Assembly (NCBI RefSeq): GCF_001708965.1
Contig: NZ_LVJW01000003.1
Location: 1,364,001 to 1,428,000 of the forward strand
Reading direction: 5' to 3'
Length of the DNA: 64,000 bases
From: Candidatus Thiodiazotropha endoloripes
GTDB lineage: Bacteria; Pseudomonadota; Gammaproteobacteria; Chromatiales; Chromatiaceae
In this document: piece by piece, positions 16,478-63,892 of the stretch
How positions within the stretch are numbered: the stretch's first letter is position 1
How the letters are laid out: each line of letters begins with the position of its first letter
Notes under the pieces: model-generated
Seen by the model: the letters and a program-made list of their open reading frames with translations, nothing else
Databases searched by the model: none
Told to the model about the DNA's origin: nothing
Program-made: the position numbers and the translations under genes

Positions 16478-16554
<77 letters not shown>

Positions 16555-16560
16555 AATCCT

Positions 16561-47989: not shown

Positions 47990-48065
47990 GGGTCGTTAGC
48001 TCAGTCGGTAGAGCATCTGACTTTTAATCAGGTGGTCGCAGGTTCGATTCCTGCACGACCCACCA
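47990..48065 (+). tRNA. tRNA-Lys (TTT)
   Basis: 76-base cloverleaf with encoded CCA: acceptor GGGTCGT/ACGACCC, D-arm AGCTCAGTCGGTAGAGC, anticodon stem-loop CTGACTTTTAATCAG with TTT, T-arm GCAGGTTCGATTCCTGC. An integrase gene follows immediately, so the 3' half is the probable attachment site. Confidence 0.97.
48046..48065 (+). other. Probable integrase attachment site (tRNA-Lys 3' end)
   Basis: P4-type integrases commonly recombine at the 3' end of tRNA genes and restore the tRNA. The integrase gene begins 175 bases from this end and points away from it. No second copy of the tRNA 3' end was found up to 64000, so the other boundary is unproven. Confidence 0.5.
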
Positions 48066-48081
48066 TATAACACTCCCGCTA

Positions 48082-48152
48082 AGTCCAATATAGTCCATAA
48101 CCCCTTATAGTTACTGAGTTTCATTGTATACTTAGTCCTATATGGTCCAATA
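48082..48152. repeat. Two direct repeats, likely integrase arm sites
   Basis: AGTCCAATATAGTCCA at 48082-48097 and AGTCCTATATGGTCCA at 48134-48149 differ at two positions and are spaced 52 bases apart, between tRNA-Lys and the integrase gene. The position is that of integrase or excisionase arm-binding sites; each is also a partial palindrome. Confidence 0.5.
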
Positions 48153-48240
48153 TCGTACCCCCACATCCAGAGCTTCCAGGGGGTATTTCTAGGGGTACTC
48201 GGTAAATGTCATGATCGCGGTACCCCCAGCAGGAGTGGGT

Positions 48241-49452
48241 ATGACACTAACGGATACAGCGGTCAGAAATACCAAGCCAAAAGACAAGTCTCACAAGCTA
48301 TTTGATGGTGGTGGGTTGTTCTTATTGGTCAATCCAAATGGGTCCAAATATTGGCGTCTCAAGTACCGGTTTCACGGCAAGGAAAAGCTGCTTGCTTTGG
48401 GCGTTTATCCTGATACGACACTGAAATCCGCCAGGGATAAACGAGATGGGGCCAGAAAGCTCCTCGCGTCTGGAATTGATCCCAGTGAAGCGCGAAAGGC
48501 AGAGAAGGCGACACGTAATTCAGATAACAGTTTTGAAGCGGTAGCCCGAGAATGGTGGACTGAACGTACTCCCAATTGGTCTGAGTCCCATTCTTCCCGG
48601 ATTATGCTCCGGCTTGAGAATGATGTTTTCCCCTGGATCGGCTCAAAACCTATCGGCGATATTACCCCTCCTATATTACTCACAGTCTTGAATCGAGTTA
48701 AAAGCCGGGGTGCAATCGAGACTGCTCACCGCATACACCAGAGTTGCAGCCAGATTTTCAGATATGCAATTGCTACCCATCGAGCGGAGCGCGATTCTGC
48801 AGCAGACTTAAAAGGCGCTCTCCCTCCTGTAAAGAAGAAACACCATCCCAGTATCACTGATCCTAAACAGATAGGCGGACTGCTCAGAGCGATCGATGGA
48901 TATCAGGGCTCATTTGTGACCCGGTGTGCTCTCCAGTTGGCTCCGCTGACATTTGTTCGGCCAGGTGAACTCCGGCATGCGGAATGGACGGAAATTGACC
49001 TAGATAAAGAGGAGTGGCGCATCCCAGCAGAGAAAATGAAGATGAAGACGGTTCACATTGTGCCGCTTTCCACCCAGGCAATTGCCGTCTTGAATGATAT
49101 CAAGCCTCTAACAGGTAACGGTCAGTATGTCTTTCCTGGTATTAGAAGCCCGAAACGACCAATGTCAGAGAATACAGTGAATGCAGCCCTTCGCCGCTTG
49201 GGTTATACAAAAAACGAAATGACCGGCCATGGCTTCCGATCCATGGCGTCAACAATTCTGAATGAGCAAGGGTGGCATATGGACGCTATTGAAAGGCAAT
49301 TGGCCCACACAGAAAGAGATTTAGTGCGAGCCTCTTACAATTACGCCCAACATTTACCCGAGCGAGTCAAAATGATGCAGGCATGGGCGGACTATTTAGA
49401 TGGGCTGCGTAGTGGTGCTAAAGCCAATTCATTAACGAGGGATGTTAAATGA
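48241..49452 (+). CDS. P4-type tyrosine recombinase (integrase)
   Basis: The 403-residue protein begins MTLTDTAVRNTKPKDKSHKLFDGGGLFLLV, the DUF4102 N-terminal domain of P4/CTX-like integrases; the ATG ten codons upstream is not typical. The catalytic domain shows the Arg of the first box in VRPGELRHAEW, HGFRSMAST (second box with Arg), LAHTERDLVRASYNY with the catalytic Tyr near the end. It would integrate and excise the island at tRNA-Lys. The next gene starts inside its stop codon (ATGA), so it is part of a co-transcribed unit. Confidence 0.95.
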   Translation: MTLTDTAVRNTKPKDKSHKLFDGGGLFLLVNPNGSKYWRLKYRFHGKEKLLALGVYPDTTLKSARDKRDGARKLLASGIDPSEARKAEKATRNSDNSFEAVAREWWTERTPNWSESHSSRIMLRLENDVFPWIGSKPIGDITPPILLTVLNRVKSRGAIETAHRIHQSCSQIFRYAIATHRAERDSAADLKGALPPVKKKHHPSITDPKQIGGLLRAIDGYQGSFVTRCALQLAPLTFVRPGELRHAEWTEIDLDKEEWRIPAEKMKMKTVHIVPLSTQAIAVLNDIKPLTGNGQYVFPGIRSPKRPMSENTVNAALRRLGYTKNEMTGHGFRSMASTILNEQGWHMDAIERQLAHTERDLVRASYNYAQHLPERVKMMQAWADYLDGLRSGAKANSLTRDVK

Positions 49453-49949
49453 ACGAAAAAAAAGCACCAGTAGTCACAGCGCTTAGTGAAACAATGAAAA
49501 ATCCGAGGCCACTTACTACAGAGGAGCGTAATAAGCTTTTAAGTGAATGGGCAGATAGAACTTTAAATGAGCTATTGGGTTACTCATTAATAATCCCTGG
49601 ATTTAAAGAAAAACTGTATAGCAGTGTAATAGATCATTTTTCAACTGATGATGATCTAACATTCCAGATGCTTAAGAAGATTCAAGGTCTTAGGAAAGGC
49701 AAAAGGGGTAGGCGTGAGAAGTGGAATTACAGTAGATACTATCACCTTTTAATGGTTTATAGTATTTGCACGAAACAAGAAATGGATCGTGATGATTTGC
49801 TTAAAAAATTAGCAAAAATGGAAGGGGTGTATCTTTATGATGGTGATAAAGCTATTGAAAATACAAAGGAAATAGAAAGACGGATTACGCTAGCTAGGAA
49901 AAGAATTAGCAAGAAAAAAATTGAAGAAGCACTATCAAGAGTCCCATAA
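49449..49949 (+). CDS. Uncharacterised island protein
   Basis: A 166-residue, Lys-rich, mostly helical cytoplasmic protein in clearly AT-rich DNA, unlike the integrase before it. ATG overlaps the integrase stop (ATGA), indicating coupling. A basic stretch KIQGLRKGKRGRREKWNYSR may bind nucleic acid, and the C-terminal helix (ERRITLARKRISKKKIEEAL) is strongly basic. I recognise no family. Its position between integrase and AlpA-like gene suggests a role in element maintenance; excisionase is one possibility but not supported by motif. Confidence 0.7.
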   Translation: MNEKKAPVVTALSETMKNPRPLTTEERNKLLSEWADRTLNELLGYSLIIPGFKEKLYSSVIDHFSTDDDLTFQMLKKIQGLRKGKRGRREKWNYSRYYHLLMVYSICTKQEMDRDDLLKKLAKMEGVYLYDGDKAIENTKEIERRITLARKRISKKKIEEALSRVP

Positions 49950-49994
49950 AATAGTGAATTAATGGGACTGACATAGCCAATATTCCATTGTTAT

Positions 49995-50031
49995 GTTCTC
50001 CACTGGACCATATGAGTTTTCAGTGGAGAAC
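49995..50031 (+). promoter_or_regulatory. Perfect inverted repeat covering the alpA ribosome binding site
   Basis: GTTCTCCACTG at 49995-50005 and CAGTGGAGAAC at 50021-50031 are exact reverse complements with a 15-base spacer. The right arm contains the GGAG that serves the start codon at 50037, so the site could be an operator for a dimeric regulator or an RNA hairpin that masks the RBS. Confidence 0.6.
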
Positions 50032-50036
50032 GACAA

Positions 50037-50312
50037 ATGCAGCAATCTAAAGATCTGGCCACCCTTCCAGAAGACGCCCTAATCAGAATCAAGGATGTAC
50101 TGAGACTGTATCCAATCAGTAAATCCGGTTGGTTCAAAGGCATTCAAGACGGCAAATACCCCAAACCTATAAAGCTAGGAGGAAGAGTCAGTGCTTGGCG
50201 CGTTGGCGATATCCTGAATCTTGTTCGCAACATTTCTGGAGAAAAAGAGAATAATAATCAGGGAAAGCGAACTATAAAGGATCAAAATACCAGCACAGAT
50301 CAAGCAGCTTAA
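50037..50312 (+). CDS. AlpA-family phage regulator
   Basis: A 91-residue small DNA-binding protein with the MerR-like helix-turn-helix of AlpA/prophage excisionase-type regulators: LIRIKDVLRLYPISKSGWFKGIQDGKYPKPIKLGGRVSAWRVGDILNLV. In P4-like elements AlpA-type proteins activate integrase/excision functions. The C-terminus is a polar disordered tail. The start is fixed by GTGGAG, which lies in the inverted repeat described at 49995-50031. The next gene starts 12 bases after its stop. Confidence 0.88.
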   Translation: MQQSKDLATLPEDALIRIKDVLRLYPISKSGWFKGIQDGKYPKPIKLGGRVSAWRVGDILNLVRNISGEKENNNQGKRTIKDQNTSTDQAA

Positions 50313-50324
50313 GGGGTAATTCTA

Positions 50325-50579
50325 ATGAGTAAGAGGAATACCCCTCCCGGCGTGGGCAGCGCCGGGGTATCTGGGGCAAGTGAGCGCATTAATCTCAAAG
50401 AGAAATATAGCACAACTCCCATCCCAGAAGCCAAAACTACCTTTTGTCATTGCATTGTTTGCGGTAGCAGGTTCACCCCTACCAGAGTTAATCATTCTCT
50501 TTGTAGACAATGCTGGTCATATCACCAGGTTGGTCGGGCAATCGAATCGATCCGGTACCTCATGCGTGAGGTGTCATGA
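50325..50579 (+). CDS. Small zinc-ribbon-like island protein
   Basis: An 84-residue protein. Residues 40-62 hold CHCIVCGSRF and LCRQCW, two C-x2-C knuckles about 15 residues apart that suggest a zinc ribbon. The N-terminal third is Gly/Ser/Pro-rich and unstructured. It is packed between alpA and the 57-codon gene, ending in TGATG overlap with the latter (TGA within ATGATG), so translation is coupled. Function unknown; possibly a cofactor of the replication protein further down. Confidence 0.65.
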   Translation: MSKRNTPPGVGSAGVSGASERINLKEKYSTTPIPEAKTTFCHCIVCGSRFTPTRVNHSLCRQCWSYHQVGRAIESIRYLMREVS

Positions 50580-50752
50580 TGTACAGCATGTTTTTTGTAC
50601 TTATTAACAGTGAATCAGGTTCTTTTGATTTTTGTGCATCACTAGAGATAGATCGGCTCGTTTTAGAAAACGAACGACTCAAGGCTGAGAATCATGATTT
50701 AAAACTGGCCGCCATTGGTTTGAAACAAGAATTCAATGGTGGATCTCGATGA
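50579..50752 (+). CDS. 57-residue coiled-coil protein
   Basis: A short gene whose start overlaps the previous stop and whose stop TGA overlaps the start of the primase gene (ATGA), which strongly supports translation. Product: MYSMFFVLINSES, then a heptad-like helix SLEIDRLVLENERLKAENHDL with Leu at regular spacing, a short leucine-zipper-like dimerisation segment. No DNA-binding motif is evident. Function unknown. Confidence 0.6.
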   Translation: MYSMFFVLINSESGSFDFCASLEIDRLVLENERLKAENHDLKLAAIGLKQEFNGGSR

Positions 50753-52800
50753 GTGACTATCTCAATCAATTTGAATCAGCTATGAGAGAAACTGGTATTG
50801 AACCGCCAGAGAATCTCATTGCTGATGGTGAACTTCATCGATTTTCGTCTAATGGCAGACCTTCTGATTCGGCTGGATACTACATATTACACGGTGATGG
50901 TATTCCTGCCGGTCACTTTGGTTGTTGGCGAACAGGCATTTCCCAAGATTGGCGAGCTGATACCGGACAAGCGTTTAGCCCTGAGGAAAAGCGGGAGTAT
51001 GCCCAACGGATGGAGAGAATTCGAGAGAAGAGAGCGGCTGAAGATCAAAAACGTAAGGCCCAAGCTAGGCAGAATGCTGAAGAGAAATGGACGAATGCAA
51101 AGCCCGAAACCGGGGCTCATAAGTACCTGTTAAATAAAGGTGTATCTGGTCACGGTCTGAGGTCGGATGGATATAATTTGCTGGTACCAATGCGTGATGC
51201 AAAAGGTACTCTCCATTCAATTCAGACTATCGATCCCAATGGCAGCAAGAAATTCCTATCTGGTGGTCGAGTAAAAGGTTGTTACTACCCGATCGGAAAA
51301 CCAAACGGTGCATTGTGTATAGCCGAGGGTTTCGCTACTGGGGCAAGCATTCATGAGACGACAGGGAAAGCGGTAGCAGTCGCCTTCAACAGCGGCAATT
51401 TGAAACCTGTGGCAGAGGCTCTCAGAAAGAAACTGCCCAACATTAAATTGATTCTATGCGCTGATGATGATGTAAACACCGAAGGGAATCCCGGGATCAC
51501 AAAAGCAACTGAAGCCGCCAAAGCGGTTGGCGGTGTTGTCGTTGTACCTGATTTCGGTGAGAACCGGCCTGAGTGTGCGACAGACTTCAACGATCTTCAC
51601 CAGCATAGAGGCTTAGAGGCGGTTAAGGCCTCGTTTAAGACCACGAGATCGATTGATGATGTAAAGGTAAAGGATACTGAGAATAGCCTCTCTGTGAAGC
51701 TGATTCAGGGCGACAGCCTTACACCTGAGCCCATTCAGTGGCTTTGGGATGGGTGGTTGGCTGCAGGGAAAATGCACATCGTAGCGGGAGTGCCTGGAAC
51801 AGGAAAGACAACCCTATGCCTCGCTCTTGCGGCATCGATCACCATAGGCGGTAGATGGCCAGATGGCACCAAAGCAGAAAAGGGGCATGTCTTGATCTGG
51901 TCTGGGGAAGACGACCCGCAAGATACCCTGATTCCACGATTACACGCATGTGGTGCTGATCTTAGCCGGATTCATTTCGTAACCTCTGTTCATAAGGAAG
52001 GCGACAGCCGTCCATTTGACCCTGCTCACGACGTACCGCATCTCAGAAAGCAGCTTGAGGCGATGAGAGTTCCGATCAAGTTGATGATTGTTGACCCCAT
52101 CGTATCGGCTACCTCAGGTGACAGCCACAAGAACGCGGAGACTCGGCGATCTCTCCAGCCATTAGTCGATCTGGCTCAATCAATCCGGTGTGCTCTTATC
52201 GGAATCACACATTTCACAAAAGGAACTGCAGGTAGAGATCCGCTCGATCGGGTTACGGGTTCACTGGCCTTTGGGGCATTAGCTCGATTGGTCATGGTGG
52301 CTGCAAAGAACCCGGAAGATGAAAAGCGGGTATTTATGCGAGCGAAATCCAATATCGGGGCAGATCATGGAGGATTCTATTATGACCTGGAGCAAGTGGA
52401 GTTACCCAATTTCCCCGGTGTCAGTACCAGCCAGTTGCTTTGGGGTGAAGCCATTGATGGCACTGCAAGGGAGATGCTTGCCGAAACAGAAACGACTGAC
52501 GATTCAGAACATAAATCAGCCATGAATGATGCCATCGAATTCTTGACCACCTTACTCAAGGACGGGCCAGTTCAATCGAAGCAGATTCGAAAAGATGTTG
52601 ACCAGGCGGGACACTCATGGGCAACCGTCAAAAGGGCAAAAAAACTACTCGGAATTGAGGCCAACAAGGATGGGATGAATGGTAAGTGGTCATGGTCATT
52701 ACCTCCGAAGGGGCTCAAAAACCCTGAAGGGTCTCACACAAATAGTATGAGAGCCTTCGAGAAAAATGAGCCCCTTCGGGAGAATTCGGAGAGTTTTTAG
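50749..52800 (+). CDS. Toprim primase fused to RepA-type AAA ATPase
   Basis: The 683-residue replication protein of the island. N-terminal zinc-less region (1-110) with a basic coiled stretch, then a Toprim domain (about 185-290: LCIAEGFATGASIHE with the catalytic Glu, LILCADDDVNTEGN with the DxD) and a RecA/RepA-like ATPase (about 330-580: Walker A GVPGTGKTT at 346, ILIWSGEDDPQDT, Walker B LMIVDPIVS, GITHFTKG). C-terminal region resembles a winged helix (SKQIRKDVDQAGHSWATVKRAKKLL). Such proteins prime and unwind DNA at the element's origin, as in P4 alpha and plasmid RepA relatives. The start overlaps the preceding stop. Confidence 0.88.
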   Translation: MSDYLNQFESAMRETGIEPPENLIADGELHRFSSNGRPSDSAGYYILHGDGIPAGHFGCWRTGISQDWRADTGQAFSPEEKREYAQRMERIREKRAAEDQKRKAQARQNAEEKWTNAKPETGAHKYLLNKGVSGHGLRSDGYNLLVPMRDAKGTLHSIQTIDPNGSKKFLSGGRVKGCYYPIGKPNGALCIAEGFATGASIHETTGKAVAVAFNSGNLKPVAEALRKKLPNIKLILCADDDVNTEGNPGITKATEAAKAVGGVVVVPDFGENRPECATDFNDLHQHRGLEAVKASFKTTRSIDDVKVKDTENSLSVKLIQGDSLTPEPIQWLWDGWLAAGKMHIVAGVPGTGKTTLCLALAASITIGGRWPDGTKAEKGHVLIWSGEDDPQDTLIPRLHACGADLSRIHFVTSVHKEGDSRPFDPAHDVPHLRKQLEAMRVPIKLMIVDPIVSATSGDSHKNAETRRSLQPLVDLAQSIRCALIGITHFTKGTAGRDPLDRVTGSLAFGALARLVMVAAKNPEDEKRVFMRAKSNIGADHGGFYYDLEQVELPNFPGVSTSQLLWGEAIDGTAREMLAETETTDDSEHKSAMNDAIEFLTTLLKDGPVQSKQIRKDVDQAGHSWATVKRAKKLLGIEANKDGMNGKWSWSLPPKGLKNPEGSHTNSMRAFEKNEPLRENSESF

Positions 52801-52802
52801 TG

Positions 52803-53138
52803 ATGAGTGATAGGCAAGTAAATGAGGTTATTACGCAGCTCGCCGGACTAGGAATCACCCTGGAAATCGACGGTGAATCGATCTGGGCGACCCCGAAATC
52901 TGCAATCACAGACGATGCCCGTCAGCTTATCCGTCACCACAAATCTGCTCTAATCGGTGTGCTGAGAGCAGGGAATGAAATCCGGATTTTAGCCAATGCC
53001 TTCTACAACCACTTATCTGGTGAAGCCAAACGAACCAATTGTTGCTACGCGAGAGCAGGGCGGTATTGCACAGAAGGCCAACGACTGAAGGATGCTTACT
53101 ATCTGGCGGTCATGCAGAGCAATTCCCATATACATTGA
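52803..53138 (+). CDS. Small protein with TubC-docking-like domain
   Basis: The 111-residue product starts MSDRQVNEVITQLAGLGITLEIDGESIWATPKSAITDDARQLIRHHKSALIGVLR, the pattern of the TubC N-terminal docking domain that is frequent in small proteins of integrative elements. The C-terminal half has NCCYARAGRYCTEGQRLKDAYYLAV with three cysteines. It follows the primase gene directly (two bases after its stop). It may mediate protein contacts; its target is unknown. Confidence 0.72.
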   Translation: MSDRQVNEVITQLAGLGITLEIDGESIWATPKSAITDDARQLIRHHKSALIGVLRAGNEIRILANAFYNHLSGEAKRTNCCYARAGRYCTEGQRLKDAYYLAVMQSNSHIH

Positions 53139-53162
53139 TATCGAATATTTGGAGTTATTGAA

Positions 53163-53753
53163 ATGACACAAAAAGAGTATGTATCTCAAGTAGATGAAAG
53201 TAGAGGTCTGGTTCAGCAACCTAGCGCATTCGATCAGCTTAAACCGCAACAGCAGCAGTTTGTTCTTGAGCTTCTGAAACACAATTTCAACGCCACAAAA
53301 GCAGCGATTGAGGCCGGGTACAGTGAGAAATCAGCCAGATCACAAGCATCTCAGCTATTAACAAAACTAAACATTCAGGCGGCAATCTCAGAGCAGGTCA
53401 AGGCACAGCAGGAACGGATCATGGTTGATGCAGATTACCTCCTGGAGGTGCTCAGAGATGATGTTGAAGCAGATTTAGCCGATCTTTTTAAGGAAAACGG
53501 CAACCTGAAACCCGTGAAGGAATGGCCACCTGTTTTCCGCCGTGGATTAGTCGCAAGCCTGAAGGTAGAGGCGATTCAAGTTCGAGACAATAACGAACAA
53601 AGCGAAATCGTACAGGTAAAAGAGGTCAGGCTCGCTGATCGAACCAAGCTGAAAGAACTTCTAGGAAAACACAGGGCTGTCCAGGCATTTGATAAGGAGA
53701 AGGATGGTAATGAGATTCACATTCATATCGAGGGCAAGGATGCACTTCTCTGA
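53163..53753 (+). CDS. Phage terminase small subunit
   Basis: The 196-residue protein has the TerS DNA-binding domain FVLELLKHNFNATKAAIEAGYSEKSARSQASQLLTKLNIQAAI, then a helical oligomerisation region (RIMVDADYLLEVLRDDVEADLADLF) and a C-terminal tail. TerS recognises the packaging site and hands DNA to the large subunit. No TerL, portal or capsid genes are in the window, so in this island it could redirect a helper phage's packaging motor, as known for SaPI-type satellites; that is an inference. Confidence 0.88.
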   Translation: MTQKEYVSQVDESRGLVQQPSAFDQLKPQQQQFVLELLKHNFNATKAAIEAGYSEKSARSQASQLLTKLNIQAAISEQVKAQQERIMVDADYLLEVLRDDVEADLADLFKENGNLKPVKEWPPVFRRGLVASLKVEAIQVRDNNEQSEIVQVKEVRLADRTKLKELLGKHRAVQAFDKEKDGNEIHIHIEGKDALL

Positions 53754-53803
53754 TCATATTTCCCTTTTATACCGTTTATAGAATCACATAGGAGATGGTA
53801 TCC

Positions 53804-56800
53804 ATGAGTTTTGCTGACTGTATTCGTAATTCTGATATTGGTGTTGATGAGCAGGACATAACTGCTATTCAGGCGCTGATTGACTCTGGAATGGGTGAGA
53901 AAGAGGCTGTTGTGACCCACCTGAATAGCTTGAAAGAAGGTCAGGGCCTAGGTCAGGTAGATAAGGCATTTAAGCAGTCTGGAGAAGATGGAGGTCTGAA
54001 GAATAATGCCTTGGAGGGTGGAACAATCGCTTTCACTGATGTGCAAAGCATCATAAAACTCACTGAGCATTCCAATCTTTCAACCTTTCTTCACGAAGCC
54101 GGGCATCTGTTTTTGGAAACTGAAGCGAAAATGTCCAAAATCTATGGGGCACCAGATGACCAACAGGCTCTATTCAACTGGTTAGAGATTGAATCTTTCG
54201 ATCAGATTGAAAAACAGCATCACGAGAAATTTGCCAGGGGTTTTGAGGCCTATCTGAGAGAAGGTAAGGCTCCCTCGATTAAGCTCAGTGAGGCTTTTGC
54301 TACTTTCCGTCGGTGGTTAATCAGTATTTACCAGAGTATCAAATCCATTGATGTCGAACTCAATGACGACATACGTCAGTACATGGATCGACTATTGGCC
54401 ACTGAGGAGGAAATAGAACGGGCCTATGCCAATCCCGCCTATGACCAGTTCTTCCGTTCGAAAGAACAGGCTGGAATGAGTGATAAGGAATGGGAGGCCT
54501 ATCAAAAACGTCAGGCCAAGGCCAGGGATAAAGCGACTCAAACCCTCGATGAGAAGCTTCTAACTGAGCTTACAAAGCGAAGATCGAAGGAGTGGGCAAC
54601 GGAAAAGGCCCCGATCATTGAAGAGGAGAAAGAGAGACTTTCAAAAGAGCCTATCTATCAACTCATGGAGAACCTGAAGAAATCACCGATGGACTACGAT
54701 CTTGTGAAAGATATCATGAACGGAGTTCCTGCAGGGCTCCTCAAGAAATCAAAAAAGGGTGGTGTCAATCCGGATGAGTACGCCCAGGCCTATGGATTCG
54801 CCACGACAAAGGCAATGCTGGAAACGATCCTGTCCACACCCTCGCTGCATCAGGCCGCCGACACAGCAGCAGAATTGCGGATGATTGGTAAATATGGCGA
54901 TATTCTGAATGATGGCTCAATCGAGGAGGAGATCCGCCAGGCGGTCCATAATGAGGAGCAGGCCAAGCTTCTACTAGATGAGATCAAGGCCTTAAACAAG
55001 AAATCACCTGCAAAACGCCAGATTGATCGGGATTATCTGAAAGCCCACGTTCGTCAAATCGTTTCTCAGATGACCGTACAGGAATTAAAACCAGGGAAAT
55101 ACTACTACGCTGAGATTCGAGCTGCTAAGAAGGCTGTGACCGCTACAGATCCTCAGGATCAACTGGATGCCAAAGTCCAGCAGATCATTAATCACTATCT
55201 GTATAAGGAAGTGTCTGAGACGAAGGCTAAAGCTGAGCGGATCAGAAAACACCTACGGACCATCCAGACCAAGAAATATGATCCCAAACAGGTCCACAAG
55301 GATTACATCCATTATTTGAAACTACTGGTATCAGCCTATGATTTTCAAAGATCACACGGGGAAGAGCAGGATGCCATCAGAAAGCTTAGGGAGCTGGCGA
55401 ATTGGGCTAAAAACCAATTCGATCAGGAACAGGGTATTAGCGTTTCTCTCTACGATCAGAACCTGATCAAGATCCTGGATGCGGACAGTAAAGGCATACT
55501 GGGGAGTGTCAGCCTCCGGGAGTGGTCTGAAATGACCATCGAGGAACTGGAGGGTATCGACACCATGGCCAGGCACTTGCGCTATGTTGGTCGAAAAATG
55601 GCTGAGGAAGCGAGAGGTGAGTTTTCGCTGAAAGCGGATGCTGCAGGTGAATCAATACGACAAAACGCCGTCAAAGGGCCGAAACAGGGGGAGAGTGGCA
55701 CCATAAAAGGAAAGGCCAAAAAGGCGGCCTACGAGTATGGCGCGAATGTCTTGCTTCATGCAGATTCTGTCTTAAGGAGGCTGGATGGGTACAAAGATGG
55801 GCTGATGTATCAGTTGATTAAGCGCCCCATAGACGACGCTATCACACAGAATCTCATGCCTGCTGAGGAAAAGGCCGGTGAAGAAATGGATGAGATCTAT
55901 CACCGCTACTACAAGGACAGTGAAATGCGGAAAATGAACAAGAAAGATGATCTTGAAGGGATTCCTCTTTCAAAGTGGGAGCGGATCTCACTGGTGTTGA
56001 ATTACGGCAATGAATCCAGCCGAGAGGCCGTTCACGACAGCCTCATCGATGGTGCAAAACCCTACTCAGAAGCCCTGATGGCTAAGGTCATCGACTCACT
56101 GGATAAAAAGGATATGGATTTCATCCAGGCCGTCTGGGACAACATTGAGCAATATAAGCCTGCGCTATTTGCTCTAGAACGGAGGCAAAATGGTGTAGCT
56201 CCTCCTTCAGTAGAGCCTATGCCCTTACTGACCAAGCACGGAATCTATAAGGGTGGCTACTACCCCTTGATGTACGATCGCAAGGCCTCGCTGAAGATAC
56301 AGGAAAGCGAATACAATGAGATGTCCAAGGCTATGACTAGCGGGCGGTCAGCGCATGCTCATACCAAGGATGGCATGACAAAGGAGCGTGTGGGCTCTGG
56401 AGGTAATCCTGTCCGCCTGGATATGATGGTCTGGCATCAGCATGTTCATGATGTTCTGAGGAGAATTCACCTCACTGAGGCGGTCAATCAGGCCCAATCC
56501 ATCATTGCCAGTAGTGCTGTAAGAAATGCAGCTGTAGAGACCGGCAATCAAGAGCTGATTACGGCTCTGGATGTCTGGATCAAGGACACGGCAGCCGGTG
56601 AGTTGATGCCTGGTGATATCCTTTCCAGGGTTTTGCGTGGCATCCGTTCTGGTTTCTCAGTATCAGTTATCGCCTGGAACGTCGGCACTATATTGATGCA
56701 GCCACTAGGCCTGCTGCAGACCATGCCAGTAATCGGGTACCGAAACACCCTTAAGGGATTGATGGCACTATCTGGTCATCCAGTGAAGGTGATTAAGGAA

Positions 56801-57661
56801 GTACAGGCACTATCCCCATTCATGCAGAATCGAGGGAAGACCTTCAATAAGGATATTCACGATACCCTCAGGACACTGCACGGAGATCCCAACAAGCCCT
56901 CCTTTATCCCGCCTGTGGTCAGAAAGTCCTACTTTGCGGGTATTGTCTATGTTCAGCGGTATGTCGATACCATTACCTGGTTGGGGGCATATGAAGCTGC
57001 GAAACAGGATACGGATAATCAAGCGGATTTGATAAACGCAGCCGACCGAGCTGTGGCTCGATCTCAGGCCTCTGGGGTGTGGTCCGATCGAACCCCGATC
57101 GAGCGGGGTAGTCTCAGTCCAACCATACGACAGGCTGAATTTGTGAAGATCTGGACAGCACTAGGCTCCTATTTCTTTGCAAAGGGTAATGTGGCCATGG
57201 AGTTGTTTGGGAAAACGGATTTCAGGAATCCTACTGAAATAGCCCGGTATGTTACTGACATGATGCTGCTCTTTGCTGTAGAAGCGATCTTGGTAGGTCT
57301 CATGCGTGGTGCATGGCCCGATGGGGATGACGACGAATCACCGGCTGCCTATGTGGGTAAAGAGGTAGGTCTCTCAGTACTTGGTGCCTTCCCTTTAATC
57401 CGGGAGATAGGTAGTGAAATTAATGGATTTAGAGGGGGATCGACAGCCGCTTCGTTTTATGAGGCAATTGGTAGTGCAGCCACACTGATCGGGCAGGGTG
57501 AGTTAGATGTTGCATTGATAAAATCTATCAATAAGCTTGGAGGAATAGCCTTTAAGTATCCATCGAGTGCCACCAACAGAGCGTTCGACTCACTGGTGAA
57601 AGATATCGAGGGAGAAGATGTAGAGTTGATTGATTACCTCATGTATCGGGAGAAAGATTGA
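53804..57661 (+). CDS. Giant phage-type polyvalent protein with zincin motif
   Basis: Start 53804 is chosen because AGGAG lies nine bases upstream, while the ATG at 53795 abuts it. The 1285-residue protein has an N-terminal HEAGH zinc motif (STFLHEAGHLFLE, residues 97-101) in a putative metallopeptidase region, long charged helices (about 200-720), and a C-terminal part with several amphipathic or hydrophobic stretches (GFSVSVIAWNVGTILMQPLG, MMLLFAVEAILVGLMRG, GSAATLIGQGELDVAL). Such composition is typical of large polyvalent or virion-internal proteins packaged and injected with phage or plasmid DNA. I do not recognise a named family with certainty. It is the longest gene of the island and ends it. 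Confidence 0.8.
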   Translation: MSFADCIRNSDIGVDEQDITAIQALIDSGMGEKEAVVTHLNSLKEGQGLGQVDKAFKQSGEDGGLKNNALEGGTIAFTDVQSIIKLTEHSNLSTFLHEAGHLFLETEAKMSKIYGAPDDQQALFNWLEIESFDQIEKQHHEKFARGFEAYLREGKAPSIKLSEAFATFRRWLISIYQSIKSIDVELNDDIRQYMDRLLATEEEIERAYANPAYDQFFRSKEQAGMSDKEWEAYQKRQAKARDKATQTLDEKLLTELTKRRSKEWATEKAPIIEEEKERLSKEPIYQLMENLKKSPMDYDLVKDIMNGVPAGLLKKSKKGGVNPDEYAQAYGFATTKAMLETILSTPSLHQAADTAAELRMIGKYGDILNDGSIEEEIRQAVHNEEQAKLLLDEIKALNKKSPAKRQIDRDYLKAHVRQIVSQMTVQELKPGKYYYAEIRAAKKAVTATDPQDQLDAKVQQIINHYLYKEVSETKAKAERIRKHLRTIQTKKYDPKQVHKDYIHYLKLLVSAYDFQRSHGEEQDAIRKLRELANWAKNQFDQEQGISVSLYDQNLIKILDADSKGILGSVSLREWSEMTIEELEGIDTMARHLRYVGRKMAEEARGEFSLKADAAGESIRQNAVKGPKQGESGTIKGKAKKAAYEYGANVLLHADSVLRRLDGYKDGLMYQLIKRPIDDAITQNLMPAEEKAGEEMDEIYHRYYKDSEMRKMNKKDDLEGIPLSKWERISLVLNYGNESSREAVHDSLIDGAKPYSEALMAKVIDSLDKKDMDFIQAVWDNIEQYKPALFALERRQNGVAPPSVEPMPLLTKHGIYKGGYYPLMYDRKASLKIQESEYNEMSKAMTSGRSAHAHTKDGMTKERVGSGGNPVRLDMMVWHQHVHDVLRRIHLTEAVNQAQSIIASSAVRNAAVETGNQELITALDVWIKDTAAGELMPGDILSRVLRGIRSGFSVSVIAWNVGTILMQPLGLLQTMPVIGYRNTLKGLMALSGHPVKVIKEVQALSPFMQNRGKTFNKDIHDTLRTLHGDPNKPSFIPPVVRKSYFAGIVYVQRYVDTITWLGAYEAAKQDTDNQADLINAADRAVARSQASGVWSDRTPIERGSLSPTIRQAEFVKIWTALGSYFFAKGNVAMELFGKTDFRNPTEIARYVTDMMLLFAVEAILVGLMRGAWPDGDDDESPAAYVGKEVGLSVLGAFPLIREIGSEINGFRGGSTAASFYEAIGSAATLIGQGELDVALIKSINKLGGIAFKYPSSATNRAFDSLVKDIEGEDVELIDYLMYREKD

Positions 57662-58024
57662 GTATGTCTAAGTGCAGAATTGGTCTTAAGCACTGAATTT
57701 TCAAATGCATGTTCGATGTTTTAAGGCCAATGGGTACATTACTTGTTACAAAAGAGCGGTCCTCTTCAGCTGTGTTTTATTCTTTTGTTTGATCTACGTC
57801 AGTGAAGGGGATGATCTGACAAATTATAGTTTCTTCAATAAATCAACTTTTACAGGAATAACAAACAAGACAATGAACAGGGATGTCTAGTAAAATTCGA
57901 TCCTCCTTTCTAGATTACTCCACATCTACTTTTTAATTTTCTTGTTTTTTAATGGATTGCTTGAGACGTACCGATGTGACCAAAAGCAATCACTAGGAAA
58001 TTATTACGCTTAAGGAACTGATAG
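57662..58024. other. AT-rich spacer between island module and RHS genes
   Basis: 363 bases. A 61-codon frame at 57705-57890 is not convincing. No copy of the tRNA-Lys 3' end was seen here. Confidence 0.4.
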
Positions 58025-60211
58025 ATGAAGGAACTAAGTAGTCGATCAATCTATAGCTTATTGCAGCTGATTCAAGGTTCAAAGAGTAGTTACAGTGCGG
58101 GGTATTTATACTGCACGAACATCTTTAGTCTACTTGTATTACTCAGCTTTTTTAGCATCCCATTGAATTCAATAGCCAATGATGCTCCATTTTGCTGGAA
58201 AGCATATCCGAATACATCCGGTGGTCAATGTCATGATGAAAAAACAGATGCCAGAGATGATTTTGAGAGCAAAGGCTTACCTTATTCAATGATGGATTGG
58301 CAATCTTCGATAGATATCAATAATGACCATGTGCGTTATAACTACAAAATGCCTTACGAGGATGTTTATGTTGGGCCATGGACGTATAGGGTAGAAGGTG
58401 TAAATCAGAATCCACTTCCGACATTTGATAATGAACAAGATGCGTTTATTACTTTAAGATCATTTTTGTTAGAGGAACAACAAGCTGCAGCATATTCTTG
58501 TTCGCCATACTCTGAAGTATGGCCTGATGGGGACTGGGTGAATTCACATAATCCACCAAAAATGACATTAGGTCACAGCATTAGTGAGTATAAAGTGCAT
58601 AGACACTTGTATTACCGAGGTGATTATTACGTAACAGCTAATGGTGTATATGAGCCATGTACTGGATACGGTCCTGGCAGTCGGTATATTACGAGAGGGC
58701 GCGCTGTCCAGTGCCCAGAACCCACTCTACAGATTTACAACTCCACAATTGAGAAATGTGTGAATAACAGTCAGGCAAATGTGAAGCAATATGGGAGGTT
58801 CGGTCTTGGCGTGCCATTGCAATGTCCGCCATATGTAGCAAATCCTTGCAGTCCAGCAACCGGCGCAAAGACTCAAACTGAAACTGACTATTCCCTGGCT
58901 AATGGCACCCTAAAGGTACAGCGAACTTATAATACTCAGGGTCTTGAGGATGGGTATATCAACATGGGACCTCGATGGCGTCATAATTACACTCAACGCC
59001 TCAATGGTTACGAACAACTGATGGATGAAGAGAGTGTTAAAATTCATCCCTATCCGGCTACAAACCGTACATCTTATTATGATACTCGGTACCAAGCTTG
59101 CACTCAGGGATGGCATGAAATCAAGTCAAGCGTGTATGGTGGATTACTCGAGAGTGGCATCCCTTATTACCGATCCGGTATGTGTGAGATACGCCTTGGT
59201 AGTAAGTATGTACTTAAACTGCCAATAATCAACAGCTTGAACCATACGCTGGATGCTGGCACCTATACTAAGATTAATTATGTATCTCGGGGGAACGGTA
59301 AAACTGATGTGTATCGCTATCAGTATTATCAATGGCGGCCCCTCTACCCAGGCAGAACGGCTATTTCGGAGACTGACAGTGGTTGGTCTATTACCCTCAA
59401 AGACAACACCGTCGAAAACTACGATGATGACGGCAGACTGGTCATCAGTACCAACCAAAGCGGTCAGAACACTCAGTTCAGTTACGATGGTGAAGGGCGT
59501 CTGCAAACAGTCACCGGTCACTATGGTGATACCTTGACCTACGCTTATGATAACGCTGGTTTTCTGACTACAATCACTACCCCGGATGGTGATCTGGAGT
59601 ATGACTATGATACAGAAGGACGACTGGCCAGTGTTACCTATCCGGATAACAACACACGTCAATATCACTACGAAGATCCAGACTTTCCATATCATCTAAC
59701 AGGTATTACAGACGAGAATAATGATCGGTATGCGACCTGGGCTTACAATGATGACGGCAAAGCCGTTTTGTCAGAACACGCGAATAGTGCAGAGCGATTT
59801 GAGTTTACCTATAACGCCGATGGCACCACCACGGTGACCGATGCCACAGGTGCTGAACGCATATATCATTTTGTGGTCAAGCAAGGCCAAATGAAAGTGG
59901 ATCATATCGAAGGTGACCGCTGCACGACCTGCTCTGGTGGTGACATTCAGGCTTATACCTACGACAGTGATGGGTTCATTGCCAGTAAGACCGACTGGAA
60001 CGGCAACACGACAACCTATATCCGAGATGATCAGGGTAGAGAACTGAGCCGCACCGAGGCCTCAGGCACCCCCCAGGCCAGAACCATCACTACAACCTGG
60101 GATACCGCCCTCAACAAACCGTTGACGGTGACTGAGCCTGAACAACGCACCGAATACAATTATGACACTGAAGGCCGCCTGATGAGCAGACAGCAAAGCC
60201 CCATCCAGTAA
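58025..60211 (+). CDS. Secreted RHS/YD-repeat protein, N-terminal half of a divided RHS
   Basis: The 728-residue protein has an N-terminal hydrophobic export signal (about 32-51: NIFSLLVLLSFFSIPLNSIAN), an unrecognised Trp/Tyr/Cys-rich region up to about 265, a DUF6531-type RHS start (CPPYVANPCSPATGAKTQTETDYSLANG, about 272-300), and YD repeats from about residue 470 (YDGEGRLQTVTGHYGDTLTYAYDNAGFLTTI). It ends in the middle of the repeat array (YNYDTEGRLMSRQQSPIQ) without core or toxin domain. The first 1.3 kb are AT-rich, the YD part GC-richer. The following gene continues the array in another frame. Confidence 0.88.
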   Translation: MKELSSRSIYSLLQLIQGSKSSYSAGYLYCTNIFSLLVLLSFFSIPLNSIANDAPFCWKAYPNTSGGQCHDEKTDARDDFESKGLPYSMMDWQSSIDINNDHVRYNYKMPYEDVYVGPWTYRVEGVNQNPLPTFDNEQDAFITLRSFLLEEQQAAAYSCSPYSEVWPDGDWVNSHNPPKMTLGHSISEYKVHRHLYYRGDYYVTANGVYEPCTGYGPGSRYITRGRAVQCPEPTLQIYNSTIEKCVNNSQANVKQYGRFGLGVPLQCPPYVANPCSPATGAKTQTETDYSLANGTLKVQRTYNTQGLEDGYINMGPRWRHNYTQRLNGYEQLMDEESVKIHPYPATNRTSYYDTRYQACTQGWHEIKSSVYGGLLESGIPYYRSGMCEIRLGSKYVLKLPIINSLNHTLDAGTYTKINYVSRGNGKTDVYRYQYYQWRPLYPGRTAISETDSGWSITLKDNTVENYDDDGRLVISTNQSGQNTQFSYDGEGRLQTVTGHYGDTLTYAYDNAGFLTTITTPDGDLEYDYDTEGRLASVTYPDNNTRQYHYEDPDFPYHLTGITDENNDRYATWAYNDDGKAVLSEHANSAERFEFTYNADGTTTVTDATGAERIYHFVVKQGQMKVDHIEGDRCTTCSGGDIQAYTYDSDGFIASKTDWNGNTTTYIRDDQGRELSRTEASGTPQARTITTTWDTALNKPLTVTEPEQRTEYNYDTEGRLMSRQQSPIQ

Positions 60212-60258
60212 ACCAGACAACCGGACCGACAGGACCTGATTGAAGCAAGGACATGGAC

Positions 60259-62868
60259 ATGAGCAAATCCACCATGACATTCACCCCTAAAAACCTCACC
60301 CTCTGGGCCGGCCTGAGTCTGGGCCTGATGCTGCCTCTCACGGCACTGGCCGACCGTACGGTCAGTTACACCTATACGGTGCACGGTCAGGTAGAGACCA
60401 TCGACGGGCCCAGGGTGGATGTCACCGACGTCACCAGCTACGGCTATGATGAAAATGGCAATCGCAACAGCATCACCAATGCGCTGAATCAGACCACCCA
60501 GATCACCGCACACGATGCCTCAGGACGCCCGCTCACCATCGTCAGCCCCAATGGTCTGACCACCACCCGAAGCTACGACCTGCGCGGGCGGATGATCCAG
60601 CAGACTGTCAGCGACGGCACCACCAGCCGCACCACCGACTATGACTACGATGCCGTGGGCAACCTCATCCAGGTCACCCTGCCGGATGGCAACAGCATCA
60701 GCTACGACTACGATGCCGCCCACCGCCTCACCGGCCTGGAAGACCAGCTGGGTAATCGTATCGACTACACCCTGGACGACATGGGCAATCGACTGAGTGA
60801 ACAGGTCAGTGATCCCACCGGCACCCTGAACCGCACCAAACAGCAGGTCTACGACCAACTGAGCCAGCTCGACCAGTCGATCGACAGTGAAAACCACACC
60901 ACGGATTTCGACTACGACCCCAGCGGTAACCTCACCCGGACCCTGGACGCCAACCTCAATCCCACCGCTCAGACCTACGACCCGCTCAACCGGCTCAGCC
61001 AGACAACCGATGCCAAGAATGGCATTACCCAGTACAGCTACGATACCCAGGACAACCTCACCCAGGTAACCGACCCCACCGGTCTGGTCACCAGCTACGA
61101 ATATGATGCCCTGGGTAACTTGATCAGCCTGACCAGTCCTGACACTGGGGTGACCACCTACACCTACGACGAAGCAGGTAATCGACTCACCCAGATCGAT
61201 GCCCGCAACGTCACCACCAGCTACAGCTACGATGCCCTCAACCGCCTGACCAACATCATCTACCCGGATACCAGTCTTAACATCAGCTATACCTACGATC
61301 AGGGTACCCACGGTATCGGCCTGCTCACCCAGATGAGCGATGCAGAAGGGACTACCGACTACCAATACAACGCCTTCGGTGAACTGACCCAAGTCACCCG
61401 TATCAGCCAGGACGGGGTAACAACAAGCTTCACCTACGGCTACAACCCCCAGGGTCAACTCATCAGCCAGAGCTACCCCTCCGGACATAGTGTTCTCTAC
61501 AGCTATGCCCAGGGCCAGCTCACTGGCCTCAGTCTGGAGCGACCCGATGGCACGACCCAGTCCCTGGTCAATCAGATCCAGCGACTGCCCTTTGGACCGA
61601 TCAACGCCATGGCGTTTGGTAACGGCCTGCAGCTCAGCCGCACCTTCGATCAGGATTACCAACTCATTGCCCAGACCCTGAGCGGTGTCCTGAATGACAG
61701 CTATGGCCATGACCCGGTCGGCAACATCACCAGTTGGCAGGATCTGATTCAGACCAGCCGAGACCAGAGCTTCGACTATGATGAACTCGATCGACTGACC
61801 GATGCCATTGGTGCCTATGGGGATCTGGATTACAGCTACGATGCGATCGGTAACCGGTTGAACCTGACCGAAGATGGCGTCTCAGAAAGTTACAACTACG
61901 CCTCTGACAGTCACCGCTTGGAGGAGATCCTTGGGGTGACCACCGATACACGGCAGTATGATGCCGCCGGTAACACCATCAGCAGTTTGCTTGGTAGCTA
62001 TACTTACGATGATCATAATCGGTTGGTGGGTTTTACCAAGACCGGGACCACGGCCAGCTACGGCTATAATGGCAAGGGAGAGCGGGTACGCAAAACCGTC
62101 AATGGTACCATCACCCGGTTCCGGTTCGGGCCGAGTGGGGCGCTGTTGGGTGAGTATGACCAGAGTGGTCAGGCGATCCAGGAGTATGTCTATTTAGAAG
62201 GGCAGCCAGTGGCGCAATTGCAAGGAATAGCGCCTGTTCAGGTCGCTTATCTGCATACCGATCATCTGGGTGCGGTGGTTAAGGCGACGGATGGTGCAGG
62301 GAGTGTGGTTTGGGATAGTGATCGTAGGCCGTTTGGAGAGCGGGCTGTGACGGTTGCTCAGGTTGAAATGCAGTTGGGGTTCCCCGGGCAGTACTTTGAT
62401 GAAGAGACAGGGAGCTATTACAACTACTTTAGGGATTATGATCCGACGACAGGTAGATATCTGCAATCTGATCCTATTGGCCTTGAAGGCGGACTGAATA
62501 CCTACTCTTACGTTTTAAATAACCCTTTACGATGGGCTGATCCTACTGGCGAAGCTGTTCCTTTAGTTTGGTGGGGAGCGAGTGGTATTGCAACAGTAGT
62601 AGTTGGTTGGGGCGCATCAAATGCTTGGCAAGATAGTTCTGATTGGGACGGTATATTACCAGATGGAACCTTTCCTGATTCTGCAGCCGATGATCGCCCC
62701 GATTGTCCCCCTGAAAATGACGATGATGACTGTGAGAAAGAAATGAAAGTTTGCCATAGGAAATGTGCAGATAACTGCACGGGTATGGGTTATGGTAGCA
62801 GTGCAAATGCATGTTATCGGCGCTGTGTGCGAACATGTCTTCCGGGGCACTGCGCCGAGAATTATTAA
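60259..62868 (+). CDS. Secreted RHS core protein with Cys-rich C-terminal tip
   Basis: The 869-residue product starts at 60259 (AAGG eight bases upstream) with its own signal peptide (KNLTLWAGLSLGLMLPLTALA), then continuous YD repeats (TVSYTYTVHGQVETIDGP onward), the RHS core (YLHTDHLGAVVKATDG, FPGQYFDEETGSYYNYFRDY, TGRYLQSDPIGLEGG, about 660-745), and after ADPTG a tip of about 105 residues. The tip is AT-richer than the repeats and carries nine cysteines (CPPEN, DCEKE, CHRKC, NCTGM, CYRRC, TCLPGHC). In RHS proteins the core autocleaves and the tip is usually a toxin; this tip's activity is unrecognised. Confidence 0.9.
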   Translation: MSKSTMTFTPKNLTLWAGLSLGLMLPLTALADRTVSYTYTVHGQVETIDGPRVDVTDVTSYGYDENGNRNSITNALNQTTQITAHDASGRPLTIVSPNGLTTTRSYDLRGRMIQQTVSDGTTSRTTDYDYDAVGNLIQVTLPDGNSISYDYDAAHRLTGLEDQLGNRIDYTLDDMGNRLSEQVSDPTGTLNRTKQQVYDQLSQLDQSIDSENHTTDFDYDPSGNLTRTLDANLNPTAQTYDPLNRLSQTTDAKNGITQYSYDTQDNLTQVTDPTGLVTSYEYDALGNLISLTSPDTGVTTYTYDEAGNRLTQIDARNVTTSYSYDALNRLTNIIYPDTSLNISYTYDQGTHGIGLLTQMSDAEGTTDYQYNAFGELTQVTRISQDGVTTSFTYGYNPQGQLISQSYPSGHSVLYSYAQGQLTGLSLERPDGTTQSLVNQIQRLPFGPINAMAFGNGLQLSRTFDQDYQLIAQTLSGVLNDSYGHDPVGNITSWQDLIQTSRDQSFDYDELDRLTDAIGAYGDLDYSYDAIGNRLNLTEDGVSESYNYASDSHRLEEILGVTTDTRQYDAAGNTISSLLGSYTYDDHNRLVGFTKTGTTASYGYNGKGERVRKTVNGTITRFRFGPSGALLGEYDQSGQAIQEYVYLEGQPVAQLQGIAPVQVAYLHTDHLGAVVKATDGAGSVVWDSDRRPFGERAVTVAQVEMQLGFPGQYFDEETGSYYNYFRDYDPTTGRYLQSDPIGLEGGLNTYSYVLNNPLRWADPTGEAVPLVWWGASGIATVVVGWGASNAWQDSSDWDGILPDGTFPDSAADDRPDCPPENDDDDCEKEMKVCHRKCADNCTGMGYGSSANACYRRCVRTCLPGHCAENY

Positions 62869-62892: not shown

Positions 62893-63129
62893 ATGAGTGA
62901 GGAGCTATCTATAGAATATGCAAAAAAAATCTTGACTACGCTCAATAAGCTTGATGTGTGTGTAGGTGGATTAGATGATTTGTATACTAAACTTGATGGG
63001 CTATCTAAATCAGAGATCAAGAGGGAATTAAAGAGAGAAATAGGTGAAGTGATGTTTGTGTCTTATGAGCTTGTGGGGCTTGTTGTTCGGCAGCATCCTA
63101 GTTTAGACCCTGACTCGGATTCTAGCTGA
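62893..63129 (+). CDS. Small helical protein, possible immunity protein
   Basis: A 78-residue, cytoplasmic, mostly helical protein (MSEELSIEYAKKILTTLNKLDVCVGGLDDLY) in AT-rich DNA 24 bases after the RHS gene. Its position directly downstream of an RHS tip is where cognate immunity genes lie, but no family is recognised and no direct evidence exists. It overlaps the 3' end of the convergent ATPase gene by eight bases. Confidence 0.55.
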   Translation: MSEELSIEYAKKILTTLNKLDVCVGGLDDLYTKLDGLSKSEIKRELKREIGEVMFVSYELVGLVVRQHPSLDPDSDSS

Positions 63130-63892
63130 GTAATTCTTTTAATATAGTTTCAGGTTTGTTGATGAAGCCTTTAGTCACTAAATAGTTATCCGTTTTCATG
63201 TATTCTACATGCTGTATTTTTCCATCCGATATTTCGTATATTTTTGAGTTTGGATAGGCAAGGATGATGGGGGAATGTGTGGCGATTATAAACTGCGAGT
63301 TATTTTCTGCGAGTTCATGGATTCTTCGAAGTGTTGCTAATTGACGTGTTGGTGATAAAGCGGCTTCTGGTTCGTCAAGTATATATAAGCCATTCCCGCC
63401 AAAACGGTGCATAAATAAAGAAAAGAAAGATTCTCCATGCGATTGATTATGAAGAGACAAGCCGCCATATGAGTTTTTTATGGGTGGTCCGAAATCTGGT
63501 TCCTCATCTAGTTCGTCAATGTTGCTTGCGACATTGTAAAAGCTCTCTGCTCTCAGAAAAAATCCATCCTGAGCCCTTCGGAAACTTTTAGATAGCCGGA
63601 TATATTCATTCAGGTTGGAGTGTGATTTTCTTGTTGAAAATCTGAAGTTTTTAGTTCCTCCTTCTGGATTAAATCCCCAAGCTGCAGCGATAGCTTCGAG
63701 TAAAGTGGATTTGCCTGTTCCGTTTTCCCCGATTATAAAGGTTACCGCCGGATGAAAGGTCAGTTTGTCTAGGTTGCGGATGACTGGTAAAGAAAAGGGA
63801 TACTCGTCGAAAGAATGAATTTTCTCCCGTAATAAGTGCATCTCTAGTAGATAATGTGAAGCATTGATAGCTTTCACTTCTTTTTTACTCAC
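63122..63892 (-). CDS. AAA/ABC-type ATPase (COG3910-like)
   Basis: The 256-residue soluble ATPase has Walker A FIIGENGTGKSTLLEAIAAAWG (residues 52-73), the signature-like SHGESFFSLF, Walker B GLYILDEPEAALS and the switch FIIATHSPIIL. It has ABC-type heads without membrane domains and without a nuclease domain, matching small predicted ATPases of the COG3910/AAA_21 type, which often lie in mobile or defence loci. Function unknown. It is convergent with the small gene at 62893 and lies close to the window's right edge. Confidence 0.85.
   Translation of the reverse strand: MSKKEVKAINASHYLLEMHLLREKIHSFDEYPFSLPVIRNLDKLTFHPAVTFIIGENGTGKSTLLEAIAAAWGFNPEGGTKNFRFSTRKSHSNLNEYIRLSKSFRRAQDGFFLRAESFYNVASNIDELDEEPDFGPPIKNSYGGLSLHNQSHGESFFSLFMHRFGGNGLYILDEPEAALSPTRQLATLRRIHELAENNSQFIIATHSPIILAYPNSKIYEISDGKIQHVEYMKTDNYLVTKGFINKPETILKELLS

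Follow-up and report, generated by a model that had tools for sequence, protein, structure and literature searches.

The question raised by the locus described here is what kind of element can begin at a tRNA gene with its own integrase and carry a terminase small subunit next to a giant virion-type protein. The locus lies in a stretch of 64,000 nucleotides (the window), which corresponds to C3:1364001-1428000 of the 4.46-Mb genome of Candidatus Thiodiazotropha endoloripes, which belongs to a group of clam symbionts, C3 standing for coordinates of contig NZ_LVJW01000003.1. It is an island at tRNA-Lys, bounded by attachment-site (att) repeats, with its own integrase, an AlpA-type regulator, a replication protein, the small subunit TerS and a stand-alone giant protein that is under selection. 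A preliminary description made from the sequence had taken this cassette for a phage satellite, and this assignment is well supported by the att repeat, by the occurrence of the same core with other integrases and at other sites, by the missing BPP-1-type genes for TerL, portal, capsid and nozzle, by the selection, and by 12 loci outside the genus that share this plan. We think that the cassette is probably an integrated satellite parasitising a podovirus similar to BPP-1 or Carin1.

The nine core genes lie on one strand and start at the tRNA. Below, numbers with G denote related genomes, numbers with L denote loci, and lengths are in amino acids (aa).

47990..48065, plus strand: tRNA-Lys(TTT) found by ARAGORN, the integration site, with its 3' end as attL and a 24-bp exact copy outside the window
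48043..48066, plus strand: attL core of 24 bp, with an exact copy at C3:1438198-1438221
48211..49452, plus strand: tyrosine integrase, 413 aa (PF13356, Arm_3; PF22022, Int_M; PF00589, Phage_integrase)
49449..49949, plus strand: orf166, in the window copy only, without significant family match (Pfam, PHROGs)
50037..50312, plus strand: AlpA-type regulator/excisionase, 91 aa (PF05930, E 7e-8; phrog_2790)
50325..50579, plus strand: orf84, weak zinc-ribbon match, also in G123 (96%)
50576..50752, plus strand: orf58, also in G123 (88%) and G130 (77%)
50749..52800, plus strand: Toprim primase / AAA_25 helicase, 683 aa (PF13362, PF13481; phrog_2249), 94% in G123
52800..53138, plus strand: 112-aa protein with TubC_N match (PF18563, E 1.1e-7), between primase and terS
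53163..53753, plus strand: TerS, 196 aa (PF03592, Terminase_2, E 2.5e-27; phrog_51)
53795..57661, plus strand: the giant, a stand-alone C-terminal module of a podoviral ejection protein, 1288 aa (phrog_9880)
54092..54106, plus strand: zincin motif HEAGH of the giant, residues 100-104
55757..56611, plus strand: region of the giant with T7 core protein fold, residues 655-939
57245..57307, plus strand: conserved membrane-prone segment of the giant around residue 1161 (hydropathy)

The integrase, AlpA, primase, TerS and giant are all found where they had been placed before, and the reported ATGA overlaps are present at int/orf166, orf84/orf58 and orf58/primase. Among the loci fetched from alignment A1 (78 of genome_contigs and 80 of viral_contigs), the best relatives of the integrase are in L078 (63%), L082 (58%) and L164 (52%), of which L078 and L082 are satellite-type and contain only part of the integrase; no relative of orf166 was found among the fetched loci. 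As the copy of the tRNA-Lys 3' end at C3:1438198-1438221 (window-equivalent 74198) is exact over 24 bp, the att-bounded island measures about 26.2 kb and ends 10 kb past the window edge. Its right end is therefore not at 57661, and the stretch continues behind the giant to the distant att copy.

The giant matches positions 945-2127 of the 2231 positions of phrog_9880 (E 1e-242), and it is 30% identical to residues 1031-2339 of the 2341-residue SAC protein, 28% to Carin1 gp32 and 27% to BPP-1 Bbp10. Its phage homologue closes the cluster of internal-virion genes, and residues 655-939 have a gp16-like fold with a modest Z, while a sequence comparison with the PDB gave no meaningful match. Sequence similarity, the place of the gene in phages and the fold all identify the giant as a homologue of a podoviral internal virion (ejection) protein, and the earlier statement that the island lacks structural genes has to be corrected. 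The giant ejection proteins of the BPP-1 type are themselves matched by phrog_9880, for which the function is listed as unknown. Around residue 1161, the 19-residue mean hydropathy averages 1.66 at the corresponding alignment column, with 90% of the sequences having a value above 1.3. Like polyvalent proteins, the giant is a large mobile-element protein with a zincin HExxH motif; such proteins have several effector domains, and in the giant no Pfam or NCBIfam domain was recognised.

An AGGAGA ribosome-binding site before an inner ATG at 53804 is conserved in three copies, which makes this start likelier and favours the previously given length of 1285 aa over 1288 aa. The ratio of nonsynonymous to synonymous substitution rates (dN/dS) of the giant is 0.050 between window and G123 (dS 0.22), 0.066 between window and G142 (dS 0.62) and 0.068 between G123 and G142; the corresponding values are 0.060 for the primase and 0.12-0.22 for TerS. 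The strong purifying selection on the giant indicates that this stand-alone gene for the gp16-C-like part of the podoviral ejection protein is a working one.

Profiles for TerL, portal, major capsid protein (MCP) and nozzle, built from BPP-1, SAC and Carin1 proteins, gave zero matches from the window through C3:1455000. As a control, the TerL and portal profiles each matched 10/10 phage or prophage loci with these genes in the covered region; three of the ten are seeds, and the models had been iterated on the same open reading frames (ORFs). When the nine core proteins were compared with PHROGs and Pfam, no virion gene was found except TerS and the phrog_9880 match of the giant, and a TerL of family PF03354 is absent from the genome of the window. 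The claimed lack of TerL, portal and capsid thus holds for the BPP-1 type also beyond the right edge; cargo genes were scanned with Pfam only, and one also with PHROGs, so that other types of capsid, portal and TerL were not fully scanned there. It was also considered that the giant is the edge gene of a complete prophage, and this was rejected on the right flank to C3:1455000 and on the extended left flanks of 12 candidate loci, all without these four genes of the BPP-1 type. An integrative and conjugative element had been named as a further alternative, and it was set aside as no conjugation family occurs among the right-flank proteins scanned, in a scan that was not exhaustive; one match to TraF comes from a host gene of thioredoxin-like type on the left side of the tRNA. 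Homologues of Sid, Psu and Delta are markers of P4-like satellites, and none of them is among the family matches of the core genes, for which no specific search was made.

Searching 210 genomes of the family for the giant gave matches in 8 (that of the window included), all of one genus and several of them only short. In G123 (locus L045), the run orf84-orf58-primase-tubC-terS-giant is conserved at 88-98% identity behind an integrase that is only 29% identical, and an att repeat of 57 columns (96.5%) at tRNA-Asn bounds 18.6 kb. G142 (L044) has the N-terminal part of the primase, tubC, terS and the giant together with a different integrase. A search for this gene order in related genomes had been proposed, and most of the cassette is present in two relatives with other integrases. 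This variety of integrases and sites, together with dN/dS, also counters a chance cluster or a dead prophage. The protein with the TubC_N match, a docking domain, is 96% identical in G123, and only its C-terminal part matches in G142 and G130.

G130 contains, from the contig end, orf58-primase-tubC-terS, a 546-aa protein and a ruined giant, with tRNA-Asn to the right; the ruin, the only one among the four copies, still reads the linker and tail of the giant. Iterated searches link the 546-aa protein, which has no PHROGs match, to the phage gene bbp11. In this slot after terS (L037:3600-5240 and 5225-5400), a bbp11-like protein is thus followed by a giant reduced to linker and tail, so that two ejection proteins may have been present in the ancestor of the element. 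In G122 and G126, the final ~47 codons of a giant follow tRNA-Lys at a distance of about 0.5 kb, and a remnant is found beside Rhs genes at another G123 locus; these tails are apparent scars of earlier satellites. Remnants of the last 40-80 codons map to L038:12054-12194, L040:15263-15405 and L039:11643-11879, with Rhs matches near all three.

Among the fetched loci, ten had an integrase in the flank on the upstream side of the giant, and 0/10 of these had a match for capsid, portal, TerL, bbp14 or nozzle; with an integrase downstream, 13/15 had a nozzle. After the left flanks of 12 candidate loci had been extended by up to 20 kb, a tyrosine integrase was found upstream and on the strand of the giant in 11 of them. 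Beside the window, this gives 14 loci, namely L044, L045 and 12 outside the genus, the latter labelled alpha-, beta- and gammaproteobacteria and showing the plan integrase, replication, sometimes TerS, giant. The models for TerL, portal, MCP and nozzle gave zero matches in the 14 loci, their extensions and the window. Repeats linked to a tRNA were found in 8/14 loci, G123 and the following seven outside the genus, with bounded lengths of 14.8-21.1 kb.

L061 (Mesorhizobium): tRNA-Arg, 51-bp repeat, 17.4 kb
L076 (Paraburkholderia): tRNA-Arg, 47-bp repeat, 15.9 kb
L068 (Methylotenera): tRNA-Lys, repeat of 109 columns at 92%, 16.8 kb
L099: tRNA-Asn, 54-bp repeat, 21.1 kb
L112: 17-bp repeat, 14.8 kb
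L056 (Hyphomicrobium): 14-bp repeat, 17.2 kb
L075: 15-bp repeat, 16.8 kb

The short repeats of L112, L056 and L075 were credited for their position at a tRNA end, and L078 and L082 lie behind tRNA-Leu without a repeat. The integration sites of the repeat-bounded loci and the window are tRNA-Lys, -Asn, -Arg, -Ser and -His. Carriers labelled as isolates are L056, L061, L076, L078 and L087, the remaining ones outside the genus being metagenome-assembled genomes or viral contigs. Four of the five are Hyphomicrobium sp. CS1BSMeth3 (L056), Mesorhizobium sp. LSHC420B00 (L061), Paraburkholderia sp. BL9I2N2 (L076) and Luteimonas marina (L078).

Several of these loci carry further homologues of virion-building genes. 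Homologues of the protease (bbp18; Carin1 gp44) occur in 10 satellite-type loci, of which eight are among the 14 (L056, L061, L068, L075, L076, L082, L093, L111) and two are L087 and L121; for the three alphaproteobacterial loci (L056, L061, L087) this link is one-way. Annotated as a protease, bbp18/gp44 may also be a scaffold. Cement-protein (bbp16/gp42) homologues are found in five loci (L068, L075, L076, L093, L121), bbp12 homologues in L078, L099 and L111, and bbp11 homologues in L068, L078, L099 and G130. TerS is present in the window, G123, G142, G130, L056, L061, L087 and L099, and weakly in L075. The replication genes are of AAA_25, VapE-like or D5-like type or consist of an initiator with a DnaC-type loader, and such differing replication genes with a common set of virion parts look like convergence. 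L056, L061 and L087 have in common (at about 4.0-7.5 kb of each locus) terS and three small genes in front of the giant, one of them the possible protease homologue. Two viral contigs, L188 (1-14145) and L187, contain bbp24, bbp23, bbp12, bbp11 and the giant, with a primase in L188 and no nozzle or capsid match in either; they are perhaps satellites of the Pseudomonas HU1/PfDIW6 group.

Where the giants came from was addressed with a FastTree phylogeny of 156 C-terminal modules, in which 16 rows were labelled satellite (the window, L087 and the 14 loci). These labels are scattered among phage giants and need 12 label changes, at least 11 of them forced by starred branches. L061 groups with the Mesorhizobium prophage giants L060 and L074, L078 stands beside SAC, and the nearest row to the window clade is the viral contig L145 with 41-44% identity. 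From this scatter, satellites seem to have acquired the giant from phages repeatedly, although gain and loss are not separable in the tree. A helper prophage with matching TerL, looked for in the genome of the window, was not found there, as neither a PF03354 TerL nor a BPP-1-type MCP is present; the MCP profile matched 0/16 genomes (that of the window and those of 15 island loci) and 4/4 prophage genomes used as control, one of which is the profile source. Within the genus, such a podoprophage does exist in G125, where TerL, portal, MCP, nozzle and a long giant are present, and its TerS and giant are 36% and 29-31% identical to those of the satellite. The helper phage would have to come from outside or be missing from these assemblies.

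For the life cycle we infer a helper, induction linked to AlpA, TerS/TerL packaging, use of the helper capsid and tail, and incorporation of the giant into particles. Upon helper infection or induction, the element would excise and replicate, with induction running through AlpA, and the satellite TerS would direct the TerL motor of the helper onto satellite DNA. Helper capsid and tail would be used, with the satellite ejection protein built into the internal core, from where it would enter the next cell before the DNA. There the giant would hold or pull the incoming DNA, as proposed for T7 gp16-C. The earlier suggestion that the giant could be packaged and delivered with the DNA fits its protein class. 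The homologues of protease, cement protein, bbp12 and bbp11 found in relatives suggest that what such satellites replace in the virion is its inside and the parts that set its size, not the shell. We see an about even chance for a wider reading, according to which this is an undescribed satellite type scattered over Proteobacteria that takes shell, motor and tail of BPP-1-like phages and brings the virion inside, with a giant repeatedly derived from helpers, often TerS, and often a protease and a cement protein that would reset capsid size; the Thiodiazotropha giant would have shrunk to only the gp16-C-like module for DNA handling and so be a natural minimal ejection protein. As part of this reading, the repeated taking of the giant from helpers would mean that the satellite controls DNA entry into the next cell. 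The satellites known so far mostly affect the specificity of packaging and the size of the capsid, while the helper takes care of delivery. A delivery protein supplied by the satellite would move piracy to the DNA-entry step and would suggest a function for phrog_9880. It would also provide a naturally truncated series of podoviral ejection proteins, in which the part that pulls the DNA is poorly understood. The loci bring TerS, protease, cement and ejection proteins, and shell, TerL and nozzle were not found in any of them, which may hint at the virion parts a satellite must own.

An unlikely alternative is interference, in which the short giant is a decoy that joins helper cores so that helper virions fail to deliver their DNA, to the gain of host or satellite. 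Among homologues with a complete 5' end, only the copies of the genus lack the N-terminal part, which in phages spans about 580 residues or more, barring the split or fragmentary rows L106, L119 and L135, and giants of 18 satellite-type loci have a median length of 1914.5 aa compared to 2298 aa in 92 nozzle-bearing loci, relatedness not being controlled; both would suit a decoy. However, the long form of 1658-2472 aa in the 12 loci outside the genus resembles replacement and not poisoning, and the linked TerS, protease and cement homologues resemble virion building. Somewhat less probable is a defective prophage, a dying remnant left when a single deletion, reaching from behind terS into the middle of the giant, took away everything from TerL to the tail genes. 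The order primase-terS-...-giant is the same as in BPP-1, and such a deletion may well have founded the lineage, but dN/dS of 0.05-0.07 over three copies, the conserved ribosome-binding site, different integrases at different sites and the 12 similarly built loci outside the genus all speak against decay. It is more doubtful still that the giant is kept as an injected anti-defence effector, in which case this polyvalent protein would act on the host through its zincin and other domains and not in delivery. H100, E101 and H104 of the HExxH motif are invariant in a 7-sequence alignment, and zincin polyvalent proteins are described, in the part of the source available, as likely packaged in capsids (PMC5512222), but the retained part includes both the T7-core-like fold and the conserved membrane-prone segment; effector and DNA-delivery roles could also go together. 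It is very improbable that the cassette is a genomic island whose integrase, or conjugation, is its only means of movement, since despite the large Rhs cargo of the window copy and the lack of a helper capsid gene in the genome, TerS and the ejection protein are kept under selection and the scanned right flank has no conjugation family.

A satellite with these genes resembles several known systems in part. Gram-negative phage-inducible chromosomal islands (PICIs) such as EcCICFT073 and EcCIMP1 (helper vB_EcoP_Kapi1) have, as far as the available descriptions go, int at the left end, AlpA, a primase and sometimes terS, and they likewise lack TerL, portal and capsid. The window contains integrase, replication module and transcriptional regulator in the conserved order of a PICI. 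The available part of the PICI definition, however, includes the absence of phage structural and lytic genes and a typical size of about 12-15 kb (PMC6092414), whereas here the giant is an internal virion protein homologue, some elements also have protease, cement, bbp12 or bbp11 homologues, and the lengths are 26.2 kb (window), 18.6 kb (G123) and 14.8-21.1 kb (eight repeat-bounded loci). PICIs are further defined by att sites that prophages never use; the sites seen in the present elements are in tRNA genes. Capsid-forming PICIs (cf-PICIs) also bring virion genes; according to the accessible text they own capsid, protease, portal, connectors and both terminases and borrow tails (PMC10690885), whereas the elements here, with 0 BPP-1-type matches for capsid, portal and TerL in the window and 14 loci, bring the virion inside instead. 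Part of the virion is also encoded by the Streptomyces satellites MulchRoom and MiniFlayer, described in that text as having capsid, portal and terminases, as lacking key replication genes and, for MiniFlayer, as having short tail fibres of its own (PMC10690885). Phage-inducible chromosomal minimalist islands (PICMIs) are also small, have AlpA and depend on a helper, but in the accounts available they integrate next to fis, have no capsid-remodelling genes and belong to Vibrionaceae; here tRNA sites are used, tRNA-Lys in the window, and virion genes are carried. The Pseudomonas satellite AH14b has an integrase, an AlpA-like gene, a primase and homologues of helper tail-assembly genes, and differs in that its available account identifies no terminase gene and mentions no ejection protein. 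Podoviruses of the BPP-1/Carin1/SAC type share the giant ejection protein, bbp12, bbp11, TerS, protease and cement protein, and they differ in possessing TerL, portal, capsid and nozzle, which in their BPP-1-type form are missing from the window and the satellite loci. In contrast to T7 gp16, peptidoglycan cutting in the BPP-1-type group is annotated in a separate gene, bbp11. In the literature, chiefly open-access main texts, none of the satellites among the matches listed is described as carrying an ejection or internal virion protein; in the accessible parts, PMC13216270 has an ejection protein only in a reference on phage 80alpha, and PMC12324425 concerns unrelated 4.6-kb elements. Within the literature searched, the giant is thus unusual for a satellite, as supposed before, but it is not a one-off and is shared by a scattered group.

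Between the giant and the distant att copy, the island contains two Rhs ORFs, an ATPase of the AAA_15 type, a hicAB-like gene pair, IS110 and unknown genes, of which the following are inside the window.

57705..62868, plus strand: orf61 and two Rhs ORFs (58025-60211 and 60253-62868), non-core, inside the att-bounded stretch
63122..63892, minus strand: AAA_15-type ATPase, 256 aa, cargo (family match; PADLOC)

In PADLOC, this ATPase matches mad3/AriA/PtuA-type ATPases (best E 1.5e-20). Some of the unknown genes recur at 89-98% identity beside the related elements of G142 (o105, o106) and G130 (o259, o213, o167), which supports a common cargo zone. The hicA-hicB-like pair and the IS110 element are in the right part of the island (L018:14418-15220 and 15776-16723), with HicA below the cut-off. 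Orf61 (61 aa) and the Rhs ORFs sit between satellite core and cargo, and orf61 is 98% identical at another G123 locus, where Rhs is also found.

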